From: Desulfobacterales bacterium
Lineage (GTDB): Bacteria > Desulfobacterota > Desulfobacteria > Desulfobacterales > JAHEIW01
Direction: 5' to 3'
Assembly (NCBI GenBank): GCA_030066985.1
Contig: JASJAN010000024.1
Span: 1 to 64,000, forward strand
Length of the DNA: 64,000 nt
Part shown: positions 21,609-58,570 of the stretch, piece by piece
Numbering within the stretch: position 1 is the stretch's first letter
Layout of the letters: each line of letters begins with the position of its first letter
Position numbers and translations under genes: made by a program
Notes under the pieces: model-generated
The model's input: only the letters and a program-made list of their open reading frames with translations
Databases searched by the model: none
Told to the model about the DNA's origin: nothing

Positions 21609-21702
21609 ATTTTCCTCCACGTTGTTGTTTGTCTAGTAAGGTGTTCTCTATATAATTATAAAATCCGGATCAACATTATTCGCCGTCTTATTTAAAACAC
21701 CA

Positions 21703-29401: not shown

Positions 29402-32242
29402 TTGAAAGATAAAACCCCATTCGTCATCGCGTGCGCTGTCCTGGCACTTGATATCAAATACGCAGCTGAGCAATTGGGCACGAACATCGGCACCAAGTTT
29501 CTGCAAGGCGGCCTTCACAATCGTCCCAACCGGTTGCGTGAAAAACTGCAGGCCGCAATCGACGAAATTTCAGCCAGTGACCGGTGTGACCGTATCATCA
29601 TCGGATACGGTATCTGCGGCCGCGGAACCGTCGGCATCCAGAGCCGGGATATCCCCCTGGTGCTGCCGAAGGTCCATGACTGCATTGCACTTTTCTTAGG
29701 AGGGGATGCGGCCTATCGACAAGAATTCAAAAAATACCCGGGCACCTATTATATATCAGCCGGCTGGCATGAAGAAAAAACCGAGCCCATTTCCCAACAA
29801 AAACAGTCGGCCTATTATGGCAGCGAAAAACTGAATTATAAAGAATTGGCTGAAAAATATGGTGCGCACGATGCTGAGGAAACCATCAGATTTCTGAGCA
29901 CCTGGCAAAAAAATTATCAAAGAGCCGCTTTCATCGAAACCGGGGCAAAGCTTTCACCCAAGTATGAAAAGTACGCCCGGGAAATGGCAAAAGAATACGG
30001 CTGGAGATACGAAAAACTCGTCGGTGACCAGATGCTGATCAAAGCGCTTTTGACCGCCGATGAGACCACCGAAGAAATCTTGTTGGTGCCCCCCAACCAC
30101 GTCATCGACTTCGATGCCATGCAATCCACCCTTGCCGCCAACCCGATATGGCTACCGGATGAAAGTCGGCCGGCGCAAACCGAAGTTACGGTAATGGATA
30201 AAGGTCACCATCATGCCGACGAACCACCGTATCTGGAAATCGGGTTGGGAATCGATGCTGGCGGCACTTATACCGATACGGTTATCTACGACTTTCACCG
30301 GGATCGGACCGTTAGCAAAAGCAAGGCACTGACCACCAAATGGGATTTCACCGTGGGTATTAACAATGCCCTGGCAACCCTGGATCAAGAAAAGCTGCAG
30401 AATGTGGAAATGGTGTCCTTATCCACCACCCTGGCAACCAATGCGATTGTTGAAGACGAAGGTCAAAGAGTCGGTATGATTATCATGCCGGCCTATGGCC
30501 GTTTCGATCCCGACGATATCCCGTATAAGCCCAAGGCCGTAATTTCGGGACAGCTGGAAATCACGGGAAAGGAAATCTGTCCGGTGGATGAAAAAGAGGT
30601 CCAACAGGTTGTGCGCCGCATGGTGGCAAAAGACAGGGTCAAAGCCTTTGCGGTCTCCGGCTACGCGGGCGCCATCAATCCGGCCCATGAACTGAAGGTC
30701 AAACAAATCATCCGACAGGAGACCGGGCTGTTTGTCACCTGTGGCCATGAACTATCACAGATTCTGAACTTTCAGACGCGCGCACATACAGCGATGCTGA
30801 ACGCCCGCATCATCCCCAAACTGACCCAATTACTGCTGGATTTGGAGAAGGTGCTCGCAGAGCAAAACATTGCAGCGCCCATTGTGGTTGTGAAAGGGGA
30901 TGGCACCCTGATGAGCGCAGCCATGGCCAAAGAACGACCCGTTGAGACGATTCTGTCAGGTCCAGCGGCAAGTGTGGCCGGCGCCCGGCATTTAACGGGC
31001 TTAAAAAACGCATTGGTGGTGGATATGGGTGGCACCACAACAGATACGGCAGCCCTGGTGGATGACGCCGTCAGTATCTGTGAAACCGGATCCAACGTCG
31101 GCGGCCACAAGACCCATGTAAAAGCGCTGGAGATCCGTACGGTCGGTCTGGGCGGTGACAGCCTGATTCAATACGAAAGAGGAGAGTTTCACCTCGGACC
31201 CCGTCGGGTAGCGCCCATCGCCTGGCTGGGGGCCATGTACCCCGGAACGGAAAAGGCACTGGATTTTCTTAACCTGCACCTGGATCGCTACACCCTGTCC
31301 ACCCAGGACATGCAAATTCTGGCCCTGACCGGCTCGGCAGACCATCTGGACCTGACACCTTTAGAGCAAAAAATCCTGACGCTCGTTCAATCAAGACCGT
31401 ATTCGATTGACGAGCTTCTCAAACGAACCGACTCATTGGTGGAAATGAGCTTAAATCTCGACCGTCTGGAAAAGCTCTTTATTGTTCAACGCTGTGGTTT
31501 AACCCTCACTGATCTTTTACATGTGACCGACAGGTTTAAGCGCTGGGATAAAAAGGCAGCCGAACGTTTCTGTCAGATGTTCTCCCGGCTGACCAAAATG
31601 GACATCCCCCAAATGGCAGACCACCTTGTGAACATGGGCGTTACACGTCTTACGCTGGAATTGTTAAAACGACAGCTGGATGATGAGGTCAATCCTGATG
31701 CCCTTCACACCTGCCCGGTCTGCCAGACCCTGGTAAAACATTTACTCATGGGCGGAAGCCATCCGTATAAGGTTCGAATTGATCTGAATCGGCCGGTGGT
31801 CGGTATTGGCGCTCCGATCCACTTTTTTTTACCCCTGGCCGCAAAAGCCCTGGGCACTGAAGCGGTGTTACCTCAAGACGCAGATGTCGCCAATGCCATC
31901 GGCGCAATCACCAGCAATGTAGTGGTCAAACGCCAGCTGCGTGTCATTCCGGATGAAGAAGGGGGGTTCTTGATCGAGGGCTTGGCCGGCAAGCGACATT
32001 TTAAAAAATTCGAAGATGCCGATGCTTTTGCGCGCGAAAAGTTGCTGCAGAGGGTCCGGGAACTGGCGCGCGCCGCCGGCACCAGCGCTCAGGCAGTCAC
32101 ACTCAAAATCGAAGACAAGATTCCTAAGACCGCGGACGGAAAACAAATCTTTTTGGGCCGAACCATTCATGCGAATCTGACCGGCCGCCCGGATATTGTT
32201 GTTAAGGCGAATCTGCAGGGTAAAACAGTCCCCGCCAATTAG
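29402..32242 (+). CDS. DUF1638 domain fused to a hydantoinase/oxoprolinase (HyuA-like) ATPase
   Basis: This 946-residue protein starts at TTG behind AAAGG. Residues about 1-245 match DUF1638 (IIIGYGICGRGTVGI, KVHDCIALFLGGD). From about 275 it is a hydantoinase/oxoprolinase A protein with actin-like ATPase motifs (GLGIDAGGTYTDTVIYD and VVDMGGTTTDTAAL). A HyuB partner is absent nearby. HyuA-type proteins hydrolyse cyclic amides with ATP, including N-methylhydantoin on the route to sarcosine. The same fold occurs in ATP-dependent corrinoid activators, though the [2Fe-2S] domain of RACE proteins is absent here. A CPVCQ cysteine pair lies near residue 775. The function is not established. Confidence 0.75.
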   Translation: MKDKTPFVIACAVLALDIKYAAEQLGTNIGTKFLQGGLHNRPNRLREKLQAAIDEISASDRCDRIIIGYGICGRGTVGIQSRDIPLVLPKVHDCIALFLGGDAAYRQEFKKYPGTYYISAGWHEEKTEPISQQKQSAYYGSEKLNYKELAEKYGAHDAEETIRFLSTWQKNYQRAAFIETGAKLSPKYEKYAREMAKEYGWRYEKLVGDQMLIKALLTADETTEEILLVPPNHVIDFDAMQSTLAANPIWLPDESRPAQTEVTVMDKGHHHADEPPYLEIGLGIDAGGTYTDTVIYDFHRDRTVSKSKALTTKWDFTVGINNALATLDQEKLQNVEMVSLSTTLATNAIVEDEGQRVGMIIMPAYGRFDPDDIPYKPKAVISGQLEITGKEICPVDEKEVQQVVRRMVAKDRVKAFAVSGYAGAINPAHELKVKQIIRQETGLFVTCGHELSQILNFQTRAHTAMLNARIIPKLTQLLLDLEKVLAEQNIAAPIVVVKGDGTLMSAAMAKERPVETILSGPAASVAGARHLTGLKNALVVDMGGTTTDTAALVDDAVSICETGSNVGGHKTHVKALEIRTVGLGGDSLIQYERGEFHLGPRRVAPIAWLGAMYPGTEKALDFLNLHLDRYTLSTQDMQILALTGSADHLDLTPLEQKILTLVQSRPYSIDELLKRTDSLVEMSLNLDRLEKLFIVQRCGLTLTDLLHVTDRFKRWDKKAAERFCQMFSRLTKMDIPQMADHLVNMGVTRLTLELLKRQLDDEVNPDALHTCPVCQTLVKHLLMGGSHPYKVRIDLNRPVVGIGAPIHFFLPLAAKALGTEAVLPQDADVANAIGAITSNVVVKRQLRVIPDEEGGFLIEGLAGKRHFKKFEDADAFAREKLLQRVRELARAAGTSAQAVTLKIEDKIPKTADGKQIFLGRTIHANLTGRPDIVVKANLQGKTVPAN

Positions 32243-33778: not shown

Positions 33779-35536
33779 ATGCCAAAAGCCCCCAATTACG
33801 AACAATTTTTGCAATTCAGCAACCATGGTGTCATTGCTACGGATAAGGACGGCCGCATCCTGTTTGTGAACAAGCGGGCCAGAGAAATCCTTAAATTTAT
33901 AAAAACCAAGATGATCGGGGTTAACATCGCAAAACTATTGCCGAAAACCAGTGAATTGGTGGCCCAATGCCTGGCAACCGGCAAACCCCAGTTGGAAAGC
34001 CAAATCCAGGGAAGACGAGTCAATCTCATTGTCAACATCAATTCCATAAGAGAGGGCAAAACCGTTACCGGTTGTGTTTGTAACTTCCTGCGTCTGGATG
34101 AATTTGAATCAACGGCCTGGAAACTGGAGTCCTTTGATTTAGTGGATCGACAATTTAAGACTGTTTTCGAATCTTCTTCAGACGGGATTTGGATCTGTGA
34201 CAAAAACGGACGGGTGGTTCTGATCAATCGGGCTTCAGAGCGGCTGGGGGGCATTAAAAGAGAGGACATTGTCGGAACAAAGGTTTCAGATCTGGTTAAA
34301 AAAAAGAGGCTATACAGCAATTATGTCACCGATGAAGTCATTGAAACCAAACGTGTGGTCAGCCAGCTGCAACATGTAAGAAACACGAAAAAAACGGTGC
34401 TTTGCACGGGCATACCCGTTTTCGATCGAAACGATAAATTGTCAATGGTGGTAATCAATGAAAGGGACATCACCCAATTAGAAGCGCTCAAAGTACAGTT
34501 AGAGGAGACGCGTAAAGAAAAAGACCGCTATAAAACAGAGCTGACCGAACTGAGCATGCTCGAATTGAAAAGACAAAAAATTGTCGCCGAAAGCGACCAA
34601 ATGCGCGACATTTTAAAGACCGCAATAAAACTGGCGCACCTGGAGGTCACTGATATCCTGCTTTTAGGAGAATCGGGCACCGGCAAAGGGCTTTTGGCCA
34701 AATTCATTCACAACAACAGCCAACGAAAAAAGAAACCGTTTATTCAAATTAATTGTGCGGCCTTACCCGAAAACCTCCTGGAAGCGGAGCTGTTCGGTTA
34801 TGAAAAAGGCGCCTTCTCAGGTGCCGACGAACAAGGTAAACCCGGGCTGTTCGAGCTGGCCCATGAAGGTACGCTATTCTTGGATGAAATCGGCGAGCTG
34901 CCCTTCTCGGTGCAGGCCAAGCTGCTGAAATACCTGGACGATCATAAGGTCCAGCGTTTAGGGGGCATCAAAGCCAAACCCATTGACTGCATCATTATTG
35001 CAGCCACCAACCAGGATATCGAAAAATTTGTACGGCAAAAAAAGTTCCGCAAGGACTTGTTTTATCGGCTTAACATTTTAACCATTAAAATTCCGCCCCT
35101 GCGCGAGCGCCCGGAGGATATCTTCGAATTGGCCAACAGCTTTTTGCACCATTATAACCGGAAGTATAAGCAAAAGAAAAAACTCAACCCCCTGGCATTA
35201 TCCTTATTACAAGGCTATTCTTTTGCCGGAAATGTCCGCGAACTCAAAAATATTATTAAAAAAGCGGTGGTCATGAGTGAAGGGGATGTGATCGATACGG
35301 TCATACTGAGCAGTATCGGCAAAGAGGTGATAGAAGACCGCTGGGAAGTGAGGGGCGCGGATAAAAAAATTAACAATCTGGTGGACATGCTTGCGGCGCT
35401 CGAAAAGGAGATGCTTAAAAATGCCATGCGGCACTGCAAATCAACGCGCGAGATGGCCCAGTTTCTCAATATCAGCCAGCCAACGGTCGTGCGTAAACTG
35501 AAGAAGCACAGTCTGCCGCCGCCAATCCACCAATAA
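33779..35536 (+). CDS. Tandem-PAS sigma-54-dependent transcriptional activator
   Basis: This 585-residue protein has two PAS domains (about 8-110 and 122-235), a short coiled linker (235-262), an AAA+ domain and a Fis-type helix-turn-helix (about 550-580; SQPTVVRKLKKH). Walker A is GESGTGKG (297-304) and Walker B GTLFLDEIGE (from 364). The sigma-54 contact loop reads GAFSGA (344-349) instead of GAFTGA, a conservative change that can be tolerated. It lacks a receiver domain. It is a candidate to act at the paired sigma-54 promoters at 43478 and 45817, or at other sites. Confidence 0.88.
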   Translation: MPKAPNYEQFLQFSNHGVIATDKDGRILFVNKRAREILKFIKTKMIGVNIAKLLPKTSELVAQCLATGKPQLESQIQGRRVNLIVNINSIREGKTVTGCVCNFLRLDEFESTAWKLESFDLVDRQFKTVFESSSDGIWICDKNGRVVLINRASERLGGIKREDIVGTKVSDLVKKKRLYSNYVTDEVIETKRVVSQLQHVRNTKKTVLCTGIPVFDRNDKLSMVVINERDITQLEALKVQLEETRKEKDRYKTELTELSMLELKRQKIVAESDQMRDILKTAIKLAHLEVTDILLLGESGTGKGLLAKFIHNNSQRKKKPFIQINCAALPENLLEAELFGYEKGAFSGADEQGKPGLFELAHEGTLFLDEIGELPFSVQAKLLKYLDDHKVQRLGGIKAKPIDCIIIAATNQDIEKFVRQKKFRKDLFYRLNILTIKIPPLRERPEDIFELANSFLHHYNRKYKQKKKLNPLALSLLQGYSFAGNVRELKNIIKKAVVMSEGDVIDTVILSSIGKEVIEDRWEVRGADKKINNLVDMLAALEKEMLKNAMRHCKSTREMAQFLNISQPTVVRKLKKHSLPPPIHQ

Positions 35537-37722: not shown

Positions 37723-40152
37723 TTAAAGGGTTTCATGCGTTGTCCGGCGTATAATCTCATTCTGTACCTGTTCGGAAAGATCATTAAAAAGCGCACAATA
37801 GCCAGCGACACGAATCACCATGTCCCGATAGTTATCCGGATTTTTTTGGGCATCCCGCAGGGTTTCAGGACTGATGACGTTGAACTGACAGTGATAGCCG
37901 CCGAGTTCAAAATAGGACCGAATCAGATTGGCCATGCCGGCCAGACCGCGCTGGCCCTCGATGGCAGAGGGCAGCAGCTTGAGGTTGAGCAGGGTGCCAC
38001 CGGGATGTAGCTCATGGTTGACTTTGGCTTCAGAGCGCATAGCGGCGGTGGGGCCGCTGGTATCCGTTCCCGGATGCGGCGAGCAACCCTCGGCCAGGGG
38101 CTGAGTTGCTTTCCTTCCGCAGGGCAACGCACCCACCACCGAGCCGGTGGGGATGTTATAGGTCAGCCCCATAATGGCGCTGTGGAAGGGATTGCCTAAA
38201 GTATCTTTGTAACGGCTCAGCCCTTTGTCATTATAGTCCGTCATCTCCACCTGCAGACGATCGACATAATCATCATCATTGCCGAACTTGGGAGAGTTCT
38301 TGAGCAGCTCTTGGATTTCCTCATGGCCGACAAAGTTGTCATCCAGGGCCTTAATCAGCTGATCCATAGTGATGTTTTTTTCTTCAAAAACATTCTTTTT
38401 GATGGCCGCCAGGCCGTTGGCACAGTCGGCGGCACCCACGACAATCCAACCGGGACCGACATTATAACGCGCACCGCCGTCTACCAGGTCTTTGCCGCTT
38501 TCCATACAGCCTTCCACCAGCAGCGAAAGGTAGGGGCGGTGGACCATTTTACGATGCAGACGGTGCTCAATGACGGTTGAGACCGCACAGTGCTTCATAA
38601 TGTGATCGACCTGATTAAAAAAGGTTTCTTTCAGTTCTTCAAAAGACGTAAACTCACGCGGATCTTTGGTAGGCAAACCCATCTGCTCATCGGTGAGGCG
38701 GCTGCGCCCCTGATTAAGCGTCCATTCCAGGGCAGCGGCCATATTGTAACCACCGGCATCGGTCCATTCGTAGACCTTGCGATGATGGGGTACGACACAG
38801 CCCAGCAAGGTCCACTCGCGGGCATCATCGGGCCGCAGCCCGGCATACATCATCATCTGGGTGCCCACCCGATCGTTGTGAAAGGCCGGAAAGCCGATGC
38901 CTTTACGGGACAAGGCGCAGCAGGCCAGTAAAAATTCTTCCGGTGTATCCGGATGAATGATGACGCTCAAAGAGGGTTGCGGCAGCGCCACCTGCGCAGT
39001 GGCTTCGACGGCCATAAAGCTGATATCATTGACGGCATCACTGCCATCGATGTTGCGGCCCCCGACACTCAGATTGGTAAATCCACTGTAACCGGCGTAA
39101 TAACGGCTGCCGTTTTTGGGTAACAGCCAGATGAGCTCGGCAATTTTGATCCAGACGCAGTTAATGATTTCCTGGGCAAATTTCTGATTGATCGCGCCGG
39201 ATTTTAGGTCTGCCTGATAAAACGGATTCATATACATGTCAAAGCGCCCGATATTGAAAGCCGGACAATTTTCAGACAGAAAACAACCCAGCATCACAAA
39301 CCAGAGCATTTGAGCGGCTTCCCAAAAATTGCGCGGCGAAAATTCCGGTACCCGGCGGCAGTTGGCGGCGATGGCTTCCAGCTCCTTTTTGCGAACAGGA
39401 TCCTTTTCTTTTAGGGCCAATTCCTCTGCATGCAGGGCATAACGTTGGCCCAGCGTTATGATCCCCTCACAGGCCTCAATAGCCGCCTGGTAATAATCGA
39501 TTTTATCCAGATCATCGACATTGGTATAATCCAGGGTTGCTAGTTTTTCTTTGGCCTCATCACAGATGGCCCGGAATCCTTTGGGGAAAATGATATCTTG
39601 AAAATCAGGCGTAATCTCTCCCACATGGCTGCGCCATTTCATTTCGGTGTCCAAAATATCAGTATTGACACCGATTTTGAGGGTATCTTCAGGAAACTGC
39701 GCCAAAGCGTTCTCTTCAATCGATTTGCCTTTCCAGTAGGGAATAATTTCTTCGACAAACAGGCGCTCCTGTTCCGGATCAATATAATAGGGATCGCGCG
39801 GTCGGGTTTGAATGCTGTCCAGCTCCTTGCCCAGCCACTGCCAGGAAATTTCAGGGACCAGGGCACCCATTCGGCGCCCCGAGCCATGGGTTCCCACGAT
39901 CAATTCGTCCTCAAAGATGTTTAGCGTGATGGTTTCACAGGCCAGCCGAAAGGCTTTGGCCAGACGCACAGGCGTAGCCTGGCCTTCGGTTTTTTTGTAG
40001 GATCGGGTAAACGCCAGGGCGCGCTCCATACAGATGGTCGGCTTTGAATCCAAATAGGCATTTTTCAACCGCTGGGTTCGCGTTTCCCCCTTTAAACCAC
40101 GAGCCGATTCACGTGCATCATTCGTTAAATCAATGGCTTCCTGTGCTGGCAT
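37723..40152 (-). CDS. Glycyl radical enzyme of the PFL/dehydratase family, atypical active site
   Basis: This 809-residue protein is of typical length for the glycerol dehydratase/CutC/HpdB/HypD class. The C-terminal glycyl loop RVAGY puts the radical on Gly784. The thiyl residue is Cys452 in GCVVP, where lyases and dehydratases of this class have GCVEP; the general-base glutamate is thus Val454. Choline, glycerol, hydroxyproline and isethionate lyase activities of the standard kind are therefore unlikely. It is paired with its own activase. The setting suggests an amine or aromatic-acid substrate, but that is a guess. The promoter is overlapped by a palindrome at 40194-40205. Confidence 0.85.
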   Translation of the reverse strand: MPAQEAIDLTNDARESARGLKGETRTQRLKNAYLDSKPTICMERALAFTRSYKKTEGQATPVRLAKAFRLACETITLNIFEDELIVGTHGSGRRMGALVPEISWQWLGKELDSIQTRPRDPYYIDPEQERLFVEEIIPYWKGKSIEENALAQFPEDTLKIGVNTDILDTEMKWRSHVGEITPDFQDIIFPKGFRAICDEAKEKLATLDYTNVDDLDKIDYYQAAIEACEGIITLGQRYALHAEELALKEKDPVRKKELEAIAANCRRVPEFSPRNFWEAAQMLWFVMLGCFLSENCPAFNIGRFDMYMNPFYQADLKSGAINQKFAQEIINCVWIKIAELIWLLPKNGSRYYAGYSGFTNLSVGGRNIDGSDAVNDISFMAVEATAQVALPQPSLSVIIHPDTPEEFLLACCALSRKGIGFPAFHNDRVGTQMMMYAGLRPDDAREWTLLGCVVPHHRKVYEWTDAGGYNMAAALEWTLNQGRSRLTDEQMGLPTKDPREFTSFEELKETFFNQVDHIMKHCAVSTVIEHRLHRKMVHRPYLSLLVEGCMESGKDLVDGGARYNVGPGWIVVGAADCANGLAAIKKNVFEEKNITMDQLIKALDDNFVGHEEIQELLKNSPKFGNDDDYVDRLQVEMTDYNDKGLSRYKDTLGNPFHSAIMGLTYNIPTGSVVGALPCGRKATQPLAEGCSPHPGTDTSGPTAAMRSEAKVNHELHPGGTLLNLKLLPSAIEGQRGLAGMANLIRSYFELGGYHCQFNVISPETLRDAQKNPDNYRDMVIRVAGYCALFNDLSEQVQNEIIRRTTHETL

Positions 40153-40225: not shown

Positions 40226-41112
40226 GCCATTTTTGGCACAAATTAGCTGGCTTAATACCGATAAAAAAATGGCGAATATCTCTATCCGCCACGTACAGAT
40301 TTATACTAAAAATAGAAAAAATTAACTTAATTTGGGCATTACCTCTAAAATTACGGTTATCACCTATGACCATCATCACAATCATTTATACTTTTCATCA
40401 GCACACCTAACAAATTTTTATGCATCCCAAATTTCACACTTAGCACGTAGTCCACAATTTAAGTTAGGTCTAAATTTGTTTTATTAGATGATGAAATTTA
40501 AAATATAGGTCTATTACAAAGATACAATTAAGTGGGGTACTGAACCGTGCAACAAGAGAAATAATTACTTGGTGATGCACTTTGAGATAATTTTCTTCAA
40601 GATTTTATTAAATTTCGAATACTTAAGTGATGAACGCAACTAACTTCTGTTCAAATTTCGCCTACCTCTTATTTTTTTAATATCTCTATTAAAAAAATTA
40701 ATACTTAGCTACCTGGCATCCATTTATTCCAAAATAAAGAATGACATAATTTATATTAATTACAATAGTTTATGATAGGACAGATACCAAATAAAATTGC
40801 GTGGCTGCTGGCATAAAGATTGCTAACTTCTTAAGCAGGGATTTTAAAGGATGCGAAATAATTTGGATTTTTCGCCTTTGAACTATTCGTAACAATAGCA
40901 ATTTAGGGATTGCAGGCATTATTTATAAAATTATTAGGAGAAAGATTGACCAGTGGGATGTCAAATAGGACCGTCTGTTTATTTTATCAGCTCTGTAATT
41001 CCAATTAATGTGGAAATCATATAATCTCATGGATGTTTTAGTTGCAAAAGGCGCGTTTCTTCTTCTGACAATATACGCACTAGTTTTTGTTTTGAATATC
41101 TTAAAGGATTTG
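40226..41112. other. AT-rich gap without recognised genes
   Basis: This stretch of nearly 900 bases is distinctly richer in A and T than its surroundings. Open frames at 40125 (minus) and 40177 (plus) overlap the promoter of the glycyl radical enzyme and look fortuitous. AGGAG at 40936 precedes only very short frames. No RNA gene, repeat or attachment site was recognised. Confidence 0.5.
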
Positions 41113-41544
41113 GTGAAGAAGAGATTTAAGGCCGAAAAAATTGAGACACGAAAAATTCTAATGAAAGAAAGACTGTCTTTGAGAAATCAAAAGGGATTCA
41201 CTCTAATCGAGTTAACTTCTGTTATGATCATAATGGGTGTAATGAGCTCGGTGGCTATAAAAAAAGTTGATTTTATAACAGATACTGCGAGTTCACAAGC
41301 TTTGGCTATATCTGTGAAGGAACTTAATGTTAGGGAAAGTATGGCTTGGTCTAACATGAAAATATCAAATGATGGGTATACAACAGATGCGGATGTCTTT
41401 GCCGCTTTAGACAAGGATCTGGGTGCAAAATTTAAATGGAATCCAGGACCGACAATCGATGGTGGAACGCTTCACTGTGAATCGGAATCGATTGTTCTTA
41501 ATCGAATCCATTCTACAACCTCAGCTGCAGGTAAATGGGAATAA
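41113..41544 (+). CDS. Type IV pilin-like (prepilin N-terminal methylation motif) protein
   Basis: The prepilin signal KGFTLIELTSVMIIMGVMSSVAI is clear, with cleavage expected between Gly and Phe, a glutamate at +5 and a hydrophobic helix. I place the start at GTG 41113 because AAAGGA lies just before it, giving a basic leader of 28 residues and 143 residues in all. ATG 41161 would give a 10-residue shorter-type leader, and the frame stays open to ATG 41008 with an extra hydrophobic segment. The mature part is small, like minor pilins or pseudopilins. No pilus machinery is nearby, so it is an orphan. Confidence 0.6.
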   Translation: MKKRFKAEKIETRKILMKERLSLRNQKGFTLIELTSVMIIMGVMSSVAIKKVDFITDTASSQALAISVKELNVRESMAWSNMKISNDGYTTDADVFAALDKDLGAKFKWNPGPTIDGGTLHCESESIVLNRIHSTTSAAGKWE

Positions 41545-42552: not shown

Positions 42553-42897
42553 TTAAGTTTTCATTTTAACAGTTTTATCTCCAAAATCATGCGTCTTCCT
42601 ACTGCTCTCTTTATTATAATGAATTACTAAAGTATGCTTTCCCACGGTTATAATATCATTATGGTTTAAATTAGCTCTCGAAATCTTTTCATCATTGAGG
42701 AATGTGCCGTTTGTACTGTTTAGATCCTCGAGAGCATATTGATCTTTTTGCTCTATAAGCCTTGCATGCTGTTTAGAAACCGTAAGGTTATCGATTTGAA
42801 TATCAGTATTAGGGCTTCGACCAATAATTATTTCAGGCTTTTCTGTTTCGATTTTTTTTAGGACTCTATCTTTAAAACTTAATTCTAATTTTATCAT
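42553..42897 (-). CDS. FHA domain protein
   Basis: These 114 residues are almost entirely one forkhead-associated domain. The phosphothreonine-binding landmarks are all present: Gly26-Arg27 (IIIGRSP), Ser41-x-x-His44 (VSKQHARL) and STNGTF (61-66). It should bind a phosphorylated partner in the cytoplasm. No Ser/Thr kinase or phosphatase is encoded in the window. The FHA and the 122-residue gene form a small minus-strand unit within the AT-rich stretch. Confidence 0.85.
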   Translation of the reverse strand: MIKLELSFKDRVLKKIETEKPEIIIGRSPNTDIQIDNLTVSKQHARLIEQKDQYALEDLNSTNGTFLNDEKISRANLNHNDIITVGKHTLVIHYNKESSRKTHDFGDKTVKMKT

Positions 42898-45725: not shown

Positions 45726-45832
45726 TGATTCATATCTGCATCGCTGCCCGTCCAGCTCTATCCAATATTTTATATAACTATATGAAATCTCATCTTTTTA
45801 TTTTTATACCGATTGTTGGCTCAAATTTTGCT
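45726..45832 (+). promoter_or_regulatory. Sigma-54 promoter with upstream palindrome (module 2)
   Basis: The promoter TGGCTCAAATTTTGCT (45817-45832) differs from module 1 by one base. The upstream site TGATTCATATCTGCATCG (45726-45743) keeps 16 of 18 bases of the module 1 palindrome and lies 73 bases away, against 74 in module 1. The intervening sequence is not conserved to the same degree. GCGATGC (45711) and GCATCGC flank this site as a second inverted pair. Transcription would start near 45844, ahead of the racemase ATG at 45890. Confidence 0.75.
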
Positions 45833-45889: not shown

Positions 45890-46624
45890 ATGATTTACAA
45901 AGCCAATAAGGGACAAACCAGTTACGGAGAGGCGATCGGCATCATTCTGATGGAAAGCTTCATGCCGTTTCCACCCGGCTGCCCTGGAAATGCCACAACC
46001 TTTTCTTTTCCGGTCAGATATGCCAACGTCAAAGGCGCCAATATGGAAAAATTGGTCTATCAAGGTGACCCGGAACTGCTGCAGCCGTTCATCGATGCCG
46101 GTTGGGATCTGGTCAACGAAGGTGTCAAGGCGATTACCGGTAACTGCGGATTTATGATTCTCTATCATGACGTGATGGCCAGGGAATTTCCGGTTCCGGT
46201 GTTTATGTCCAGTCTATTGCAGCTGCCGTTTATCTCTCGCATGCTCAAGCCCGGTGAGAAGATTGGCATCATTACCGCCAGCGCTAAAACCTTAACGCCC
46301 AAACATTTGCAGATCGCCACCAACGGTGCTGATATCCCGCTGGCCATCGCCGGTATGGAAGAACAAAAGCATTTTTATGATGCAATTCATGCCGAAGCCG
46401 GCGAACTCGACTTTGATGCCGTTGAAGCGGAAGTCGTTCAGGTGACCCAAAACCTGATCGAAAAGGAAGACAACATCAAAGCCATATTACTTGAATGTAC
46501 CGATCTTCCGCCCTACGCGGCTGCCACTCAGGAAGCGGTGGGTCTGCCCGTTTTTGATTTTACGACCATGATCAATTATGTATATTCGGGCCTCGTCCGC
46601 AGGAGGTTCGAAGGATACTGCTAA
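45890..46624 (+). CDS. Aspartate/glutamate racemase superfamily protein
   Basis: This 244-residue protein has the two cysteines expected of cofactor-independent racemases, Cys86 in GNCGF and Cys203 in LECTDLPP, each in its usual half of the pseudo-symmetric fold. Relatives include hydantoin racemase, maleate isomerase and arylmalonate decarboxylase, so racemase, isomerase or decarboxylase activity are all possible. GGAGGAGG precedes the ATG. It is first behind sigma-54 module 2 and is followed by the ALDH-like gene after 70 bases. Confidence 0.78.
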   Translation: MIYKANKGQTSYGEAIGIILMESFMPFPPGCPGNATTFSFPVRYANVKGANMEKLVYQGDPELLQPFIDAGWDLVNEGVKAITGNCGFMILYHDVMAREFPVPVFMSSLLQLPFISRMLKPGEKIGIITASAKTLTPKHLQIATNGADIPLAIAGMEEQKHFYDAIHAEAGELDFDAVEAEVVQVTQNLIEKEDNIKAILLECTDLPPYAAATQEAVGLPVFDFTTMINYVYSGLVRRRFEGYC

Positions 46625-46694
46625 GCTAATACCTGTAAAAAAACATCAAACCTATAAGGTCTTCAAAAAAGCAAACCGTGTAAAGGAGGACTCC

Positions 46695-48161
46695 ATGTCT
46701 GACAAAGTCTACCAAAAAAAAGCATTCATCGGGGGTGAATGGGTCGAATCGGAAAGCGGCGAGCGTTTCGAAGTCCACTATCCAGGCGATGGCAGCGTGA
46801 TCGGTACAGTACCGGCCTGCACCCGCAACGACGCCCAGAAAGCCATCGATGCGGCCATTGAAGGGCAAAAAGCCCTGGCAAAACTATCACTGGTCAAACG
46901 AATCGAACTGCTGCACAAAGCCACCGAGTTGGCCAAGAAGAGAGATGAAGAATCATCCCGTCTCACCTGTCTGGAATCCGGCAAGCCCATTCAGCAGGCC
47001 GTCTGGGAGGGAAGCACCATTGATGGGTATAGCTGGAGCAACTTTCATGTGGCGGCCGCCAATATTAAATCGCACCGCGGCAAGACCCTGCCCAATGTGA
47101 CTGAAGATTCCAACAATAAACGTCTAATCCATATTTTCGAACCGGTGGGGGTGGTAGTCAATATTTCAACCTTCAGCTATCCGTCTGAAATGCCCAATTG
47201 TACCATTCCCTATGCCCTGGCGGTGGGCAATAGTGTGATTGTAAAACCGTCGTCCGGATCGCCATTCAGCAGTATTATTATTGCAGAGGTTCTTGAAGAA
47301 GCCGGCTTTCCCCCGGGCAGCATCAACGTGTTGACCGGCGCCGGCGAAGAAGTCGGCGTCGAACTGTGCTCAAATTCCGGCACCCAGGCCATCGGCCTGT
47401 TCGGCCAGGAGCCCACCGGCGAAAAAGTGGCAAAGACTGCGGCTATGAAAAAGCTGTTGTTTGCCATCGTGTCCAATAACCCGTTGATCGTCATGGATGA
47501 TGCCAACATCGAAGCCGCTGTGGAAGCCGCCGTGGGGGGATGCTATGCGCATAACGGACAGTCGCCGATATCCACCCGCAGAATATTGCTCCACAAAGAT
47601 GTCCATCAGGATTTTGTCAACCGCTTTGTCGAAAGGACCCAGGCGCTCAATTTGGCGGACCCGCTGGATGAAAAAGCGGATGTCGGGCCCGTACACAACA
47701 GCAAGGTGCTTGAAGTCGCCCTGGCCCACCTGGAGGATGCCCGTCAAAAAGGCGGCAAGTTCTTAACCGGTGGCAACAATCCCAAAGGGCTGTATCTGGA
47801 GCCCACCATTATTGACGAGGCCACCGGCGACATGCTCGTCACCCAGGAACCCACACCGGGACCGATCGCGCCGATCATGACGTTTGACAACATCGATCAG
47901 GCCGTGGAGCTGGCCAATTCAACCCGGTTCGGATTTCAGATCGGCGCGTTTACCAGCGGTCTGGCAAATGCCTATCATCTGGCCGAAAACATCCAGGCTG
48001 GAAGCGTGTATATCAACGAAGCCACCAATTGCTGGGATGAAATGGCGCCTTTCGGGGGGGTTAAGAAAAGCGGCATCGGCCGCATGCTGTCGGATTGGAC
48101 CTTCGATGAATTGAGCCAGATCAAAATGATTTTATTTGATCTGGGTAAAGTAAAACAATAA
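46695..48161 (+). CDS. Aldehyde dehydrogenase-fold protein lacking catalytic residues
   Basis: AAAGGAGG before ATG 46695 fixes the start, giving 488 residues, the full ALDH length. The fold landmarks are there (KPSSGSP at 184-190, PFGGVKKSGIGR near 452). The catalytic ones are not: the nucleophile cysteine of GQxC is Pro291 (GQSP), the general-base glutamate of ELGG is Ala257 (FAIVSNNP), and the oxyanion asparagine of PWNFP is Ser161 (TFSYP). The NAD loop is also unusual (GLFGQEPTGE). Cys283 is the nearest other cysteine. Ordinary aldehyde oxidation is therefore unlikely. Its place directly before an AOR suggests a scaffold, substrate-binding or new catalytic role. Confidence 0.85.
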   Translation: MSDKVYQKKAFIGGEWVESESGERFEVHYPGDGSVIGTVPACTRNDAQKAIDAAIEGQKALAKLSLVKRIELLHKATELAKKRDEESSRLTCLESGKPIQQAVWEGSTIDGYSWSNFHVAAANIKSHRGKTLPNVTEDSNNKRLIHIFEPVGVVVNISTFSYPSEMPNCTIPYALAVGNSVIVKPSSGSPFSSIIIAEVLEEAGFPPGSINVLTGAGEEVGVELCSNSGTQAIGLFGQEPTGEKVAKTAAMKKLLFAIVSNNPLIVMDDANIEAAVEAAVGGCYAHNGQSPISTRRILLHKDVHQDFVNRFVERTQALNLADPLDEKADVGPVHNSKVLEVALAHLEDARQKGGKFLTGGNNPKGLYLEPTIIDEATGDMLVTQEPTPGPIAPIMTFDNIDQAVELANSTRFGFQIGAFTSGLANAYHLAENIQAGSVYINEATNCWDEMAPFGGVKKSGIGRMLSDWTFDELSQIKMILFDLGKVKQ

Positions 48162-48230
48162 CCCCAGGTCTTTATCAAAAAAGGCGTCAATATTAGGCAA
48201 CCGCAATGGTTTTGTACAAAGGAGATGTCA

Positions 48231-50204
48231 ATGGGTTACATGCGTGGTGGAACCATTTTACGAATCGACCTGAGCTCGGGCTCAATCGCCAGAGAACCAA
48301 CCGCTGAGTACGAACGCTTGTGGATCGGCGCACGAGGATTAAATTCCCGAATTCTGTATAACGAAACCGGCCCGGAGGTCGATCCGCTGGATCCGGCGAA
48401 TGTGCTGATGTTGAGCCTTGGCCCATTCACCGGCACCATGGTGCCCGGCTCCGGCCGGGTGGAGGTCGCTGCAAAATCGCCTGTCAACGGTATTCAGGGC
48501 ATGGGCAACATGGGCGGCTACTGGGGGCCTGAATTAAAATATGCGGGCTATGACAGCATCGTTCTAAACGGCAAAGCGCAGCGTCCGGTTTACATTGCCA
48601 TTCATAATGATGAGGTCACAATAAAAGACGCCACACATCTTTGGGGCATGGACACCTATCAAACCCAGGACGCCATCCGACAGGAACTGGGTGATCCCGA
48701 GGTTGAAGTCGTTTGTATCGGGCCGGCCGGCGAACGGATGATCCCTTATGCCTCCATTCATAATCGCCTTGGCAATGCCGCCGGGCGGACCGGCATGGGG
48801 TGTGTCATGGGCTCTAAAAATCTGAAGGCCATTGCCGTGCGGGGAACCAAGGGCGTGGCCATCGCAGAGCCCGAGCGATTTTTTGAACTGTGCCTGGAGG
48901 CCTTACAGGTCCAAAAACCCCAGCTGGGAATGGCCAAAACCATCGATCTGGCCGACAACGATCCTCCGTCGTGGGGGCTGACGCTGGGAAACTATGAGGC
49001 TACCGAATGGGAAAAACAAAAGGAACTCAAAGACGGACATAAACCTTTCTGGGAAAATCATAAAAACCGCCAGGGAGAAGGCATCACCGGATGCTTCAAC
49101 TGCCAGGTGCGCTGCATGGATTACTATGAGCTTCCTGAATGGGGCCCGCTGGTGGCCAGCTGCAACCTGTATGCATCAACCACCTGGGTCATGAAAGATC
49201 CGGATATGAAGTCCTGGTATGGGTTTGTGTCCAAATGTCAGCGCCAGGGAATCGATTCCACCTCGGTTTCGCGCATGATTGCCTGGGCCATGGAGCTCTA
49301 CGAACAGGGCAAGATTACCGCAAAAGATACGGATGGCATTCAGCTTAACTGGGGAGATCAGGATGCCATCAGCCAGATGGTCGACAAGATCATCAAGCAA
49401 GAAGGCTTTGGTGAGGTGCTGGCCAGCAATCCGGCCGAAGCCGCCCAAAAAATCGGCGGTGACGTGGAAGAAGCCTTGCAGATAAAGGGCCTGCCGCTGG
49501 GGGGCACCAACGTGATGAATTTCCGAGCCCGCACAATCGGTGCGGTGGTCAATCCCAGAGGCGGCGATGAATATCGCGCCCGGGTCGGGTCCTTCGACAA
49601 TCTCGGCAGCGGTAAAGACGCCGGCATGACCGGCATGTCCAACCCGGACAGCTGGGAGGCCAAATCCGCCATGGCCATCATCGACGCGGCCCTGGAAAAA
49701 AAGAAACAGGCCGGGGAAGAACCGGTGATTGGCCAGTTTGATTATGAAGCCCGGGGGGCGCTGGCCGCATTGGGCCAAAAAATCTCAACCATCAGCGATA
49801 CCCTGGGGCAGTGCAAGTGGAACACCATATTTCTGAATATCGGCATCAGCATCGAATTCCAGGCCAATGCCCTTTCGGCCGGAGAAGGCCGGGAGACCAA
49901 CATCGAAGAGCTCCTGGAAGCAGCAGCGCGCATTTCCTGCCAGGAAAGGGCCTATGCCGTGCGCGAGGGGATGACCAAAGATGCGGACACTCTGCCTAAA
50001 AAATTGCTCAATTATTCGATGGCAGGCACCTATCCGGAAGACCAGGTCACGCCAGAAGATCTGGAACAAATGAAAAAGGATTATTATCAGGCCATGGGCT
50101 GGGATGTTAAAACCGGTATTCCAACCCTTGCGACCCTGCGGGCACTCAACTTGGAAGATGTGGCATCTGATTTGATCAAGCAAGGGAAACTGAAGTCTGA
50201 ATAA
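48231..50204 (+). CDS. Aldehyde:ferredoxin oxidoreductase family protein (AOR-1)
   Basis: ATG 48231 has GGAG 6 bases before it; the in-frame ATG at 48225 touches the ribosome site. The 657-residue protein has the AOR N-domain with the pterin-binding GRTGMGCVMGSKNLKAI stretch. The [4Fe-4S] ligands Cys288, Cys291 and Cys295 (CFNCQVRC) have a fourth cysteine late in the chain (GQCKW). AORs hold a tungsto- or molybdo-bispterin and interconvert aldehydes and acids using ferredoxin. It is followed by a QueG-like FeS protein and a four-cluster ferredoxin, likely electron partners. Confidence 0.88.
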   Translation: MGYMRGGTILRIDLSSGSIAREPTAEYERLWIGARGLNSRILYNETGPEVDPLDPANVLMLSLGPFTGTMVPGSGRVEVAAKSPVNGIQGMGNMGGYWGPELKYAGYDSIVLNGKAQRPVYIAIHNDEVTIKDATHLWGMDTYQTQDAIRQELGDPEVEVVCIGPAGERMIPYASIHNRLGNAAGRTGMGCVMGSKNLKAIAVRGTKGVAIAEPERFFELCLEALQVQKPQLGMAKTIDLADNDPPSWGLTLGNYEATEWEKQKELKDGHKPFWENHKNRQGEGITGCFNCQVRCMDYYELPEWGPLVASCNLYASTTWVMKDPDMKSWYGFVSKCQRQGIDSTSVSRMIAWAMELYEQGKITAKDTDGIQLNWGDQDAISQMVDKIIKQEGFGEVLASNPAEAAQKIGGDVEEALQIKGLPLGGTNVMNFRARTIGAVVNPRGGDEYRARVGSFDNLGSGKDAGMTGMSNPDSWEAKSAMAIIDAALEKKKQAGEEPVIGQFDYEARGALAALGQKISTISDTLGQCKWNTIFLNIGISIEFQANALSAGEGRETNIEELLEAAARISCQERAYAVREGMTKDADTLPKKLLNYSMAGTYPEDQVTPEDLEQMKKDYYQAMGWDVKTGIPTLATLRALNLEDVASDLIKQGKLKSE

Positions 50205-50210
50205 ATGTAG

Positions 50211-50939
50211 ATGGAACTAAAAACTGAAATTAAGCAAACAGCCAAAGAAGCTGGATTTCAATTCTGCGGCGTTTCAGACCTTAAGAAAGTGGAAAAGGTC
50301 GATTTTCCTCCCGGCCGGGGGCTCAAAAAGCCATCGGCAGTGATGCCGCAGGCCAGGTCTTTGATTGTGCTGGGATATGTCGTCTGGGATGAATCTTTAA
50401 ATGTTGAAGCTGTCAAGGACAATTCCTCCGAATATATCTGCCTTTACTATGAAATAATGGAGTCGCGTGCCTGGCGCTTCATTCAGCGGCTAAGAGAGAA
50501 GAAAAATTTTAATGCGCTGCCGACACAGTCCATTCACATAAAACCGGCCGCCATGCTGGCAGGTCTTGGCTTCATCGGCCACAACACCCAGGTCATCACA
50601 CCGGAATACGGTGGACGGGCGCGCTGGATCGGGGTTCTCACGGATATTGAGATTGAGCCGGATGAACCTTTCAAGCGTGATCTTTGCGCCGAGCAGCCGC
50701 TTTGCCAGAAAAGGTCCCGCTGCGTGCTGGCCTGCCCGTACAAGGCGATCATACCCGGTCCGTCACAGGGTGTTCCACCGGGCGAAAAGGTCAAATACGA
50801 TCGCTGTGTCGTAACGCATAAGCGCGATGAGGTTCTTGATCAAAAGTGGGAAAAATTTATCCGGCGCATCTCAGACAATGGGTTTATGGCCTGCACCCGA
50901 TGTAATCTGGCTTGTCCGTATGGTAAAACTGTTGAATAA
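50211..50939 (+). CDS. QueG-like double [4Fe-4S] protein
   Basis: This 242-residue protein resembles the C-terminal half of epoxyqueuosine reductase and of reductive-dehalogenase-like proteins. It has MLAGLGFIGHNTQVITPEYGG and then two ferredoxin-type clusters (CQKRSRCVLACP and CTRCNLACP, combined with CAEQPLC and a later Cys). Corrinoid binding, as in QueG, is possible but not shown by a visible motif. It is encoded 6 bases after AOR-1 and probably works with it rather than in tRNA modification. No strong ribosome site was seen, consistent with coupling. Confidence 0.72.
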   Translation: MELKTEIKQTAKEAGFQFCGVSDLKKVEKVDFPPGRGLKKPSAVMPQARSLIVLGYVVWDESLNVEAVKDNSSEYICLYYEIMESRAWRFIQRLREKKNFNALPTQSIHIKPAAMLAGLGFIGHNTQVITPEYGGRARWIGVLTDIEIEPDEPFKRDLCAEQPLCQKRSRCVLACPYKAIIPGPSQGVPPGEKVKYDRCVVTHKRDEVLDQKWEKFIRRISDNGFMACTRCNLACPYGKTVE

Positions 50940-51082: not shown

Positions 51083-51619
51083 ATGGGAAACGTAATCGTT
51101 ATCTACCCCGAAAAGTGCAGCGGATGCCAGATGTGCGAGGTCAGCTGCTCTCTGAGAAATATGAAAGAATGCAATCCGGAACGATCGCGGATTCGGGCCA
51201 TCAAATCCGAAGAAAACGGACAATATCAGTTCATCCCGTCCACCTGCATGCAGTGTGAAACAGCGATGTGCGAGCTGGTCTGCCCGGTAAATGCCATCAG
51301 CCGCGACCCGCAAACAGGCGCCCGCATCATCAGTGAAAAAAAATGTATCGGCTGCAGCTCCTGCAGCTATGCCTGCCCTTTCGGGGCCTGTTTCGTCGAC
51401 CGCAATCTAGGCAAATCCATTGTCTGCAACCAGTGCGATGGCGACCCGACCTGTGTCAAGGTATGCCCGTCCGGTGCGCTTGAATATGTCAATACCGAGC
51501 AGGTCAATATCAGTCTCAAACGCGCTGCGGCCCAGCGTATTTTATACGCCAGAGAATTGATTCAAGAATTACCCGTACCGCAGCAGCAGCAGGACCTTCC
51601 GGGCAAGGAGCTGTGCTAG
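51083..51619 (+). CDS. Four-cluster [4Fe-4S] ferredoxin (HycB/DMSO reductase B type)
   Basis: The protein is 178 residues with four cysteine quartets: CSGCQMCEVSC, CMQCETAMCELVCP, CIGCSSCSYACP and CNQCDGDPTCVKVCP. This is the electron-transfer subunit type that serves molybdenum/tungsten oxidoreductases. It most likely accepts electrons from AOR-1. GGAGAC precedes the ATG. There is no signal peptide, so it is cytoplasmic. Confidence 0.88.
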   Translation: MGNVIVIYPEKCSGCQMCEVSCSLRNMKECNPERSRIRAIKSEENGQYQFIPSTCMQCETAMCELVCPVNAISRDPQTGARIISEKKCIGCSSCSYACPFGACFVDRNLGKSIVCNQCDGDPTCVKVCPSGALEYVNTEQVNISLKRAAAQRILYARELIQELPVPQQQQDLPGKELC

Positions 51620-56573: not shown

Positions 56574-58472
56574 TTAAAGGCATTCATTTAATCCCAGGCT
56601 CTTTAGTTTGTCGGGGCTGGGAATACCATTGGAACCCCATCCGCGAATGTCATAGTATTCAGCCAACATGGTATCCAACTGGGGTATGTTCTTGCCTGCC
56701 GGCCCCGCACCCCGCGTCGTCTTCAGGAAGCGGTCAGGCAAGGTATCATCTTTGGCGCTGATGCCTAAGCGCACGCCGATCATGCGCTGCAAGTTAAAAA
56801 TGCGCTCCCCCGTCTGATAAAATTCAGCCAGCTCCACATCCCAACCGGTGGCAATGTTTAGGAAATCCAGATATGAAGGCGGCTGCAGCGGCGGGCGCCC
56901 AAAACAGTCGGTGCTGTTGGTGAACAAACACAGGGTTAGTGAATTCAGCAGACAAATAAAATCCTGTGCTTTGGCCGTCAATTTACCCTGCCCCTCCACT
57001 TGATAGGGGCTAAGGCGTTCGGTGGCCACCCAGTGGGAAATATCGGCTCCATCCAGGTCTTCTTTGACGGAGTAATCGTAATAGATCGACGTAAACCCGG
57101 ACATGTGGCTGGCACCGAAGGTGGAGGTCGCATTCTCAAGGGCAGCGCCGTTGTAGGCCCGGGGGTCATGCGCGGCAATTTCAAGCCCCTTGCCCTGCAT
57201 TGCAAAGCGCTCTGCGCCGGCACCGATGGTTTTGGCCGCCTGGCGGGTTCCTTCCGCCAGGATGTCGGCCAACTGCCCGTCGCGGAAAGCGATCTTTTTG
57301 ACCAGCGCCAGCATGGCTTCGGCATTACCCCAGCTCAGATCAAGACCTTCCAGCATTTCGGCTTTGATGAGCCCGGCCTCAGCGCATTCGATGGCAAAGG
57401 CCAGGGTTGCCCCCAGCGAAATAGAGTCAAGGCCGTACTGATTGCAGTAATCATAGGCCAGATGAACAGCGTCATAGTCTGCAATCAGACATTGGGTGCC
57501 GATGGGACATAACGCTTCCCAGACCGTATGCCGTTTGCCTTGCGGGTTCAGCCGGGACTCCACGCAACTGGTGCGGCACCCGAAACAAAAATCATATTTA
57601 GCGCTTTCCGACAGTACGTCGACAATGGTGTCATCGACTTCTTTGAACTCCCCGGCGGCCCAGTTTTTAATGGGGGCCCGTCCCATCTGCCAGAGGCTGT
57701 CCCAAAGCTCTCTGCCTTTTGTTCGGCGGATCTCATGGGTAATTTTTCCCTTGGGAAAATAGTGTTCAACGCTGGCCTTCAAGGCTTTTTTATCGGCAAC
57801 CTTTACCGCACCTGAACTGCAAACCGCGACCCCTTTGAGCTTTTTATACCCCATCAGGGCACCAAACCCGCAGCGGGCCGCCGCCCGGCCCCGTTTGCCG
57901 TCATTCATCACACATGCAAATTTAACCAGGTTTTCACCGGCTTGACCAATGGCGGCCGTACTGAGTTTACTGCCTTCCAGTTCCTTGAGCGCATCCTCGA
58001 ATTCATAGCAGTCCATGCCCCAAAACGGTTCAGCGTCTCTGAGCTCAACGCGATCTGCTGAGATAAACAGATATTGGGGCGCACGGGCCTGCCCCCGTAT
58101 AACAACGCCGTGATAGCCAGCGGATCGCAGTCGAAAGGCCCAGTGCCCGCCGGAATGCGCTTCACCGTATATACCGGTCAACGGCGACAGCCCCGCCACA
58201 ATATGCCGGCCGCCATAGGGAACTGCGCCGGTCAAAGGGCCGGTCATGAAGATCAGCGGATTTTCGCCGGATAACGCCGGGGTTTCAGCGGAGGTTTCAT
58301 GCCAGATGATCTTGGCTGCCAATCCGGCACCGCCCAGATATTTGCGGGCCACATCGGCTTTGACATAAACGGTCTCGATAGCGCCGTTGTCCAGGTCAAC
58401 GATAAGCAAGCGGTGTGAAAATCCCTCACCCGGCTTCTCTGCATAAATTTGCTCTTGCGGTTTTGCTGCCAT
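56574..58472 (-). CDS. Aldehyde:ferredoxin oxidoreductase family protein (AOR-2)
   Basis: AGGAGAAAT before ATG 58472 sets the start (632 residues); an upstream in-frame start at 58505 is unlikely. It is a full AOR with GRAAARCGFGALMGYKKLKG, the cluster cysteines Cys296, Cys299 and Cys303 (CFGCRTSC) and a late cysteine (LTLCLFTNS). It is a distant paralogue of AOR-1. It reads in the same direction as the liv genes but is separated from livM by a repeat-bearing gap. The ferredoxin partner is not adjacent. Confidence 0.87.
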   Translation of the reverse strand: MAAKPQEQIYAEKPGEGFSHRLLIVDLDNGAIETVYVKADVARKYLGGAGLAAKIIWHETSAETPALSGENPLIFMTGPLTGAVPYGGRHIVAGLSPLTGIYGEAHSGGHWAFRLRSAGYHGVVIRGQARAPQYLFISADRVELRDAEPFWGMDCYEFEDALKELEGSKLSTAAIGQAGENLVKFACVMNDGKRGRAAARCGFGALMGYKKLKGVAVCSSGAVKVADKKALKASVEHYFPKGKITHEIRRTKGRELWDSLWQMGRAPIKNWAAGEFKEVDDTIVDVLSESAKYDFCFGCRTSCVESRLNPQGKRHTVWEALCPIGTQCLIADYDAVHLAYDYCNQYGLDSISLGATLAFAIECAEAGLIKAEMLEGLDLSWGNAEAMLALVKKIAFRDGQLADILAEGTRQAAKTIGAGAERFAMQGKGLEIAAHDPRAYNGAALENATSTFGASHMSGFTSIYYDYSVKEDLDGADISHWVATERLSPYQVEGQGKLTAKAQDFICLLNSLTLCLFTNSTDCFGRPPLQPPSYLDFLNIATGWDVELAEFYQTGERIFNLQRMIGVRLGISAKDDTLPDRFLKTTRGAGPAGKNIPQLDTMLAEYYDIRGWGSNGIPSPDKLKSLGLNECL

Positions 58473-58570
58473 GGTTATTTCTCCTATTCGAAAGGCGACA
58501 TTCAATAAGTAAAGTCCGGAGAGGTAATCGATAGCAGGCAGGAAAAATTTGGAAAGTCTATCTTTATTTA

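Follow-up and report, generated by a model that had tools for sequence, protein, structure and literature searches.

Aldehyde dehydrogenases (ALDHs) form a very well studied family, of which the window, i.e., the whole stretch of 64,000 nucleotides that was analysed, encodes a free-standing member that lacks the whole catalytic set and is under strong selection. Its gene is co-inherited with that of a tungsten-type enzyme, which itself seems to have been stripped of its aldehyde-oxidising residues and to have gained a cysteine or selenocysteine (Sec) ligand. The loss, the conservation and the co-inheritance are firm, the mechanism being what we infer from them. Taken together, the losses, the selection and the fixed neighbours indicate that the ALDH-like protein probably has a new job. 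If both of these nominal “aldehyde” enzymes have indeed departed from aldehyde oxidation, as it seems, they would provide a new lead on the Cys-liganded relatives of the AOR family, and family-based annotation would mislabel both genes as aldehyde-oxidising.

An ALDH fold without its catalytic residues

The open reading frame at 46695..48161 (+ strand) comprises 488 codons followed by TAA, and its ATG is preceded by an AGGAGG ribosome-binding site (46684..46689, +), so that the length, frame and ribosome site are intact, as a previous sequence-only reading had stated. A single Pfam match to PF00171 (residues 16-479, 2.9e-124) covers nearly the whole protein. The AlphaFold model, built with a 37-sequence alignment, has a mean pLDDT of 93.4 and a pTM of 0.92, and its top structural match, with a Z of 58.3, is an ALDH of Pyrobaculum with bound NADP, onto which 474 residues superpose with an rmsd of 1.8; structural alignment with 4h73 gives 31% identity. 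The protein is thus predicted to fold like any complete ALDH, which, together with the PF00171 match, places it in the ALDH superfamily. Fold libraries do not separate pseudo from active ALDHs, the best 50 rows of each being ALDH-family entries. Similarly, the best 25 of 43 scores against NCBIfam ALDH models all fall below the cut-offs, as do the listed scores of the canonical Chloroflexi sister described below; hence a score below the cut-off is not discriminating.

It had been proposed from the sequence that Pro291, Ala257 and Ser161 replace the catalytic cysteine, glutamate and asparagine, respectively. Alignment with two solved ALDHs and 58 others confirms these replacements, S161, A257 and P291 occupying the columns of Asn169, Glu268 and Cys302 (ALDH2 numbering). 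A species-wide scan gave 68 loci outside the clade, 54 of which make up the 58 controls together with L002, L003, L004 and L007; L005 was left out, and the other 14 loci of the scan were excluded as short, redundant or weak (L048, L060, L063, L067, L068, L070, L073, L075 and L077-L082). The nucleophile Cys302, present in 58/58 controls, is Pro in all six members of the clade to which the protein belongs (codons 286-296, HNGQSPISTRR, 47550..47582, +). The general base Glu268, present in 56 of the 58 controls, is Ala in 6/6, and the control alignment places Val/Ser at Gly270/Gly271 in the same segment (codons 257-260, A-I-V-S, 47463..47474, +), Gly270 being found in all 58 controls and in none of the six members, which carry Val. 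The oxyanion Asn169 (58/58 controls) is Ser in 6/6, within a segment that also holds the new invariant residues Glu165 and Cys169 (codons 157-169, I-S-T-F-S161-Y-P-S-E165-M-P-N-C169, 47163..47201, +).

The losses extend to the nicotinamide side of the pocket, where Glu399 (58/58 controls) and Phe401 (57/58) are replaced, in the control alignment, by P/A/V and by P/M, respectively, with neither residue retained in any of the six members (codons 386-388, P-T-P, 47850..47858, +). On the adenine side, Lys192 and Gly245 are each retained in 6/6, while Ser246 and Thr247 have become Gln and Glu in 6/6. The roles of Lys192, Glu268, Cys302, Glu399 and Phe401 in ALDHs are those given in the sections of PMC8160307 drawn on here. 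Of the 57 columns in which 90% or more of the controls agree, the whole clade retains 41 and lacks 12, and the remaining 4 differ between its members; by our reading, 11 of the 12 common losses lie within or beside the catalytic and nicotinamide segments, A57 being the exception. The losses go beyond the three residues named in the sequence-only reading, Glu399, Phe401 and Gly270/271 being gone as well. A shifted alignment restoring a Cys/Glu pair, which had been named as the result that would speak against the losses, was looked for and rejected: conserved motifs flank the sites, and no saving shift exists in either alignment.

Distribution, selection and known ALDH pseudoenzymes

Five relatives, 67-97% identical and with the same losses, form a clade of six with the window's protein: L011 (97%), L015 from a Desulfosarcina MAG (73-74%), L013 from a Desulfococcus MAG (71%), L012 from a Desulfobacula MAG (67%) and L014 from the isolate Desulforhopalus singaporensis DSM 12130 (67%). 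The sample is thus one of six genomes, with two that are 97% alike, four MAGs and one isolate (D. singaporensis). The searches covered 146 relatives, 389 genomes of the class, 395 of the phylum, 389 of the order and 242 of the class of G770, which are overlapping draws from larger groups, plus one scan of contigs from 84,980 species, in which exact short peptides were required. In the class, phylum and order searches, as in the class search for the AOR described below, the best few first-look candidates of each genome were scored, usually 4; for both reasons, further members may have escaped.

The match in G006 (38%) and those in two Chloroflexi MAGs (51-52%) keep the catalytic residues. In a tree built from 36 of 64 alignment rows, the six members form one clade (support 100/100), to which the canonical pair from Chloroflexi is sister (100/99). 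The branch leading to the six has a length of 0.61, versus 0.24 for that leading to the sister, which is consistent with a burst of change. The frame is open in the window and in five other assemblies, and in G358 it is split over two contigs by an assembly break inside the gene, the contig with the AOR starting with the last codons of the ALDH-like gene.

Comparison of the window's gene with that of L011 gave 101 synonymous and 18 non-synonymous differences, i.e., a dN/dS of 0.042, a value taken from this pair only, more distant pairs being near synonymous saturation and set aside. In the same pair, the neighbouring racemase and AOR genes gave 0.046 and 0.067, so that the ALDH-like gene is held equally tight. 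Purifying selection on the gene is strong. Because the same changes are found in five relatives and dN/dS is 0.042, neither chance nor decay accounts for the losses, and decay, which had been put forward, together with substitutions confined to this one sequence, as a way in which the original observation could fail, is rejected. The losses have a single origin and were followed by constraint. The occurrence of the same losses in six genomes at 67-97% identity supports the earlier suggestion that the gene encodes a conserved pseudoenzyme or a protein with a new activity.

The protein resembles canonical bacterial ALDHs (lactaldehyde, betaine aldehyde and semialdehyde dehydrogenases, PF00171) in its fold, its length, the 41 conserved positions, Lys192 and Gly245, and is 51-52% identical to the canonical Chloroflexi ALDHs; it differs from them in that Cys302, Glu268, Asn169, Glu399, Phe401 and Gly270/271 are all replaced. 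Luo et al. reportedly described, in 2016, an ALDH-superfamily domain of unknown function in PutA, which has the ALDH fold without ALDH function. That domain is a fused part of the longer PutA protein, in contrast to the protein described here, which is free-standing, matches no other Pfam family and is encoded beside an AOR-family gene. As the sequence-only reading had pointed out, ALDH-fold proteins without the cysteine exist: human ALDH16A1 is a pseudoenzyme in which the whole catalytic triad is missing, and ALDH16 is the only pseudoenzyme named in the parts of two ALDH reviews used here (PMC10650815, PMC8160307). The window's protein shares the absence of the triad with ALDH16A1. However, ALDH16 has a large second, non-functional cofactor-binding domain according to the relevant section of PMC8160307, whereas the present protein has no second C-terminal domain, consisting of 488 amino acids with a single PF00171 stretch, and belongs to a gene cluster of an anaerobe. 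The titles and abstract openings of the open-access literature yielded no free-standing bacterial ALDH pseudoenzyme beside an AOR, most subscription journals being outside this scope. ALDH pseudoenzymes are already known from ALDH16A1; a free-standing bacterial family with these losses and an AOR partnership did not turn up and is, to this extent, new.

The racemase-ALDH-AOR cluster and its AOR-like enzyme

The gene order racemase - ALDH-like - AOR-like is found in 6/6 genomes. The first gene (45890..46624, +) encodes an Asp/Glu/hydantoin racemase-like protein that scores above the NCBIfam cut-off of the PRK07475 subfamily. Its orthologue lies directly upstream of the ALDH-like gene in all six genomes, the five others being 73-95% identical to that of the window, and the cysteines of the GNCG and ECTD motifs are retained in 6/6. 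The third gene (48225..50204, +) encodes an AOR/WOR-family tungsten (or molybdenum) enzyme and follows the ALDH-like gene after 10, 22, 52, 63, 63 or 119 bases, depending on the genome. The homologues with the same losses therefore always adjoin racemase and AOR-like genes, which the sequence-only reading had asked about. Its placement of the gene between a racemase-like gene and an AOR holds for the order, but the neighbour is not a classical AOR, since Glu313 and His448 are missing and Cys or TGA stands at the position of the BamB ligand.

A sigma-54-type -24/-12 promoter-like site (TGGC...TTGC, 45817..45832, +), which agrees with the consensus at 10 of 11 letters, lies 73 bases ahead of the racemase gene. 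The best such site within 400 bases upstream of the racemase reaches 9 or 10 of 11 in 6/6 genomes, a level of 9 that is also reached by 91 of 1200 shuffles; for L015 the scanned stretch included the first 9 bases of the gene, whose start had been placed that far downstream of the true one. In L012, L013 and L015, a sigma-54 activator resembling the one at 33779-35536 of the window is encoded upstream of the racemase. Downstream of the AOR-like gene, a QueG/reductive-dehalogenase-like 4Fe-4S protein (50211..50939, +), for which both scores are below the family cut-offs, precedes a multi-cluster 4Fe-4S electron-transfer protein (ferredoxin; 51083..51619, +), assigned from profile matches and neighbourhood. 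The QueG-like gene is absent from the corresponding place in L012 and L014, where a ferredoxin 77-79% identical to that of the window directly follows the AOR. It is possible that the ferredoxin is the small subunit of the AOR-like enzyme.

AOR orthologues (at least 64%) were found in six of ten genomes tested, which are exactly those with the ALDH-like gene. In the four comparison genomes without one, the best matches reach 38% in G001, of the same genus, and in G006, and the two Chloroflexi gave no match at 1e-60. Among 291 genomes of the class, an AOR orthologue at 1e-130 was found in three, all of which also have the ALDH-like gene; G358 and G379 hold the AOR yet are missing from these matches, the best few candidates per genome having been scored. 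In G258, a fragment of a second AOR, 58% identical over 173 residues, lies at the end of a contig.

Cys313 of the AOR-like protein aligns with Cys322 of BamB and is Cys in four genomes and an in-frame TGA in two (L012 and L014). Cys or TGA in the BamB-ligand column is found in 6/6 AOR-like proteins versus 0/15 other AORs, a contrast that depends on the alignment, as 3 of the 15 (L101, L102 and the window's second AOR) have a Cys within 3 columns of the ligand column. L101, which is BamB-like at the ligand site, may represent a further Cys-ligand type. The column of His448 holds Glu in 6/6 AOR-like proteins and His in 14/15 others, and that of Glu313, which lies in a gappy stretch, holds Ala (5) or Val (1) in the AOR-like proteins and Glu in 9/15 others. 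According to the part of PMC12096430 consulted, Cys322 of BamB ligates tungsten and has a counterpart in the YdhV clade alone, and the second-shell residues by which AORs oxidise aldehydes are missing from BamB. The partner is similar to BamB in both respects, and its absence of both Glu313 and His448 sets it apart from classical AORs. Since these two residues are lost and Cys or TGA occupies the ligand position, the AOR-like partner, too, probably no longer oxidises aldehydes.

In overall sequence, the partner scores higher with AOR 9mqx (305.8 bits) and 1aor (281.6 bits) than with BamB (268.0 bits), and two relatives have TGA at the ligand position; its membership of the YdhV clade is only putative. 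Assignment to YdhV through NCBIfam PRK09849 was dropped, as two ordinary AORs, from G002 and from the window's genome, score 247-250 bits versus 264 for the partner. YdhV-type (Class V) enzymes have no assigned activity reported in the part of PMC13328260 used, and the main text of this WOR classification contains no mention of a racemase and refers to aldehyde dehydrogenase once, in an unrelated context.

The two TGA-containing genes beside the ALDH-like gene (L012:7440-9392 and L014:11481-13436), in which TGA stands at the Cys313 position, probably encode Sec, i.e., a selenocysteine tungsten enzyme. Both genomes have SelB above the cut-off, as do five of six others searched (7/8 in total), so that its presence is not telling. 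A similar hairpin, looked at as a candidate SECIS, follows both TGAs, its folding being no better than that of shuffles (z -1.2 and -1.6 over 56 nt; 0.2 and 0.3 over 71 nt). Two further AOR-family genes were observed: one in the Desulfobacula MAG G379 (contig C94:7575-9470), 29% identical and with one in-frame TGA, and the window's second AOR (56574-58505, -), which lies some 6 kb beyond the first and has kept the His of the His448 column.

The rebuilt pocket, its possible functions and the wider window

Pocket windows were placed according to the ALDH2 structure. Within them, 47 of 55 sites are invariant in the clade versus 206 of 430 elsewhere (odds 6.4), compared with 40 of 52 versus 229 of 418 (odds 2.75) in six canonical ALDHs, which are six of eight proteins that we picked for similar divergence; these windows and the set of 15 catalytic and nicotinamide sites were likewise of our choosing, and sites are not independent, so that p-values are only a guide. 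Identity to the Chloroflexi sister L016 is 1/15 at the catalytic and nicotinamide sites, 22/51 at other pocket sites and 229/415 at the remaining sites. At 12 of these 15 sites the replacements are themselves fixed in the clade; on the other side of the argument, this set is less uniform here than in the canonical six, where 15/15 are invariant, and the columns of Glu399 and Phe401 are among those that vary. Because conservation of the pocket exceeds that in the canonical set, the comparison points, on balance, to a pocket that was rebuilt and then mostly frozen, and hence to an old active site that took on a new function instead of decaying.

Given these observations, and with confidence a little short of even, we tentatively consider the protein to be no longer an NAD-dependent aldehyde dehydrogenase but a ligand-binding pseudoenzyme, partner of a metalloenzyme with a BamB/YdhV-like active site. 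The rebuilt pocket would bind a small carbonyl or carboxylate compound without oxidising it, of which the racemase would supply the right stereoisomer. The ferredoxin would feed the Cys/Sec-liganded tungsten enzyme for a low-potential step on the compound, and the ALDH-like protein would hold, shield or hand over the substrate or intermediate, or form a subunit of a putative complex. It could also bind a nucleotide, given that Lys192 and Gly245 are kept.

A pocket frozen with new Cys, Glu and His residues would be equally compatible with catalysis and with mere binding. Glu165 and Cys169 are present in 6/6 members, at a distance of four residues from each other and shortly after the position that the oxyanion Asn used to occupy. 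Cys169 is Ile in both sisters; in the other 56 controls, the common residues of this column, of which Cys is not one, are Arg (24), Trp (18), His, Leu and Gly (3 of each) and Ala (2). Glu165 is Asp in both sisters, with Ala or Leu commonest among the other controls. Cys446, which is Tyr in both sisters, is found in 5/5 members in the alignment and in the separate fragment L097. These residues and the unusual conservation of the pocket windows would suit a new enzyme with a relocated active site, built on Glu165 and Cys169, perhaps with Cys446, His118 and His286, and acting as a non-NAD lyase, isomerase, hydratase or acyl-transfer enzyme. However, invariance alone is no proof of catalysis, as conserved cysteines also bind ligands or pack, and the predicted helix is broken at 169-170 in the AlphaFold model; we regard such an enzyme as rather unlikely, if a serious contender. 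An extended form is considerably more doubtful: the ALDH scaffold would carry a new class of enzyme, with Cys169/Glu165, and perhaps Cys446, in the former substrate tunnel, and would act in series with the two-cysteine racemase and a Sec/Cys tungsten AOR no longer oxidising aldehydes, on a chiral carbonyl derived from methylated amines in an anaerobic pathway.

About as improbable is a structural or scaffolding pseudoenzyme, in which the fold would serve oligomerisation or assembly of a complex with the AOR-like protein and the pocket would be ligand-free. Precedents for such a role are the second domain of ALDH16 and, in some PutA proteins, the ALDH-like domain, and it would account for the fold kept despite the loss of the catalytic set and for the strict adjacency to the AOR-like gene, but an unused pocket would be expected to drift, whereas conservation is higher in the pocket windows than in the remainder of the protein. 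That the protein is still an aldehyde dehydrogenase using substitute residues could be argued from the unchanged fold and the presence of Lys192 and Gly245, yet it is very improbable, with Cys302, Glu268, Asn169, Glu399, Phe401 and Gly270/271 gone together in 6/6. A pseudogene, or a local sequencing or assembly error, would explain the odd residues and nothing else, and has a negligible chance, being already refuted by open frames in the window and five assemblies, the same losses and the dN/dS of 0.042.

The ligand-binding partner that we favour is encoded in a window that also has genes for MttB-family methyltransferases, DMGDH-like oxidases, enoyl-CoA hydratases, acyl-CoA synthetases and a glycyl radical enzyme (GRE) of CutC-like type, and in L012 and L014 MttB-family genes lie on the same stretch as the ALDH-like gene; a role of the cluster in the breakdown of methylated amines is plausible. 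Three MttB-family proteins are encoded in the window (5382-6803, 16933-18369 and 26289-27770, +), of which only the third passes the TIGR02369 trimethylamine cut-off; the first and second may therefore act on other methylated amines. In Chloroflexi, a DMGDH-like FAD enzyme follows the canonical sister ALDH (L016:6040-8526 and L017:1522-4029) and is 51-52% identical to the protein at 19164-21620 of the window. From this arrangement, the ancestral partner of the ALDH may have been an amine oxidase.

The GRE (37723-40152, -) scores 720 bits against a cut-off of 1050. Since its motif is GCVVP instead of the GCVEP of CutC, it is probably not a choline lyase. It was rejected as a part of the core system and is considered context only, lying 6.5 kb upstream in the window, with no match to it at E 1e-150 in G358 (completeness 92) or G379 (completeness 81). 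Close relatives (82-96%) occur in G002, G258 (82%) and G770, and L014 encodes an 83% relative about 4 kb from the racemase as well as a second GRE (57-58%) directly beside it. Elsewhere in the window, a large protein (29402-32242, +) has hydantoinase/oxoprolinase-type matches from about residue 280, its approximately 280 N-terminal residues having no NCBIfam match. By eye, an N-terminal motif of prepilin type (GFTLIELTSVMIIMG) and an FHA-like protein were seen at 41008-41544 and 42553-42897, between the GRE and the racemase cluster.
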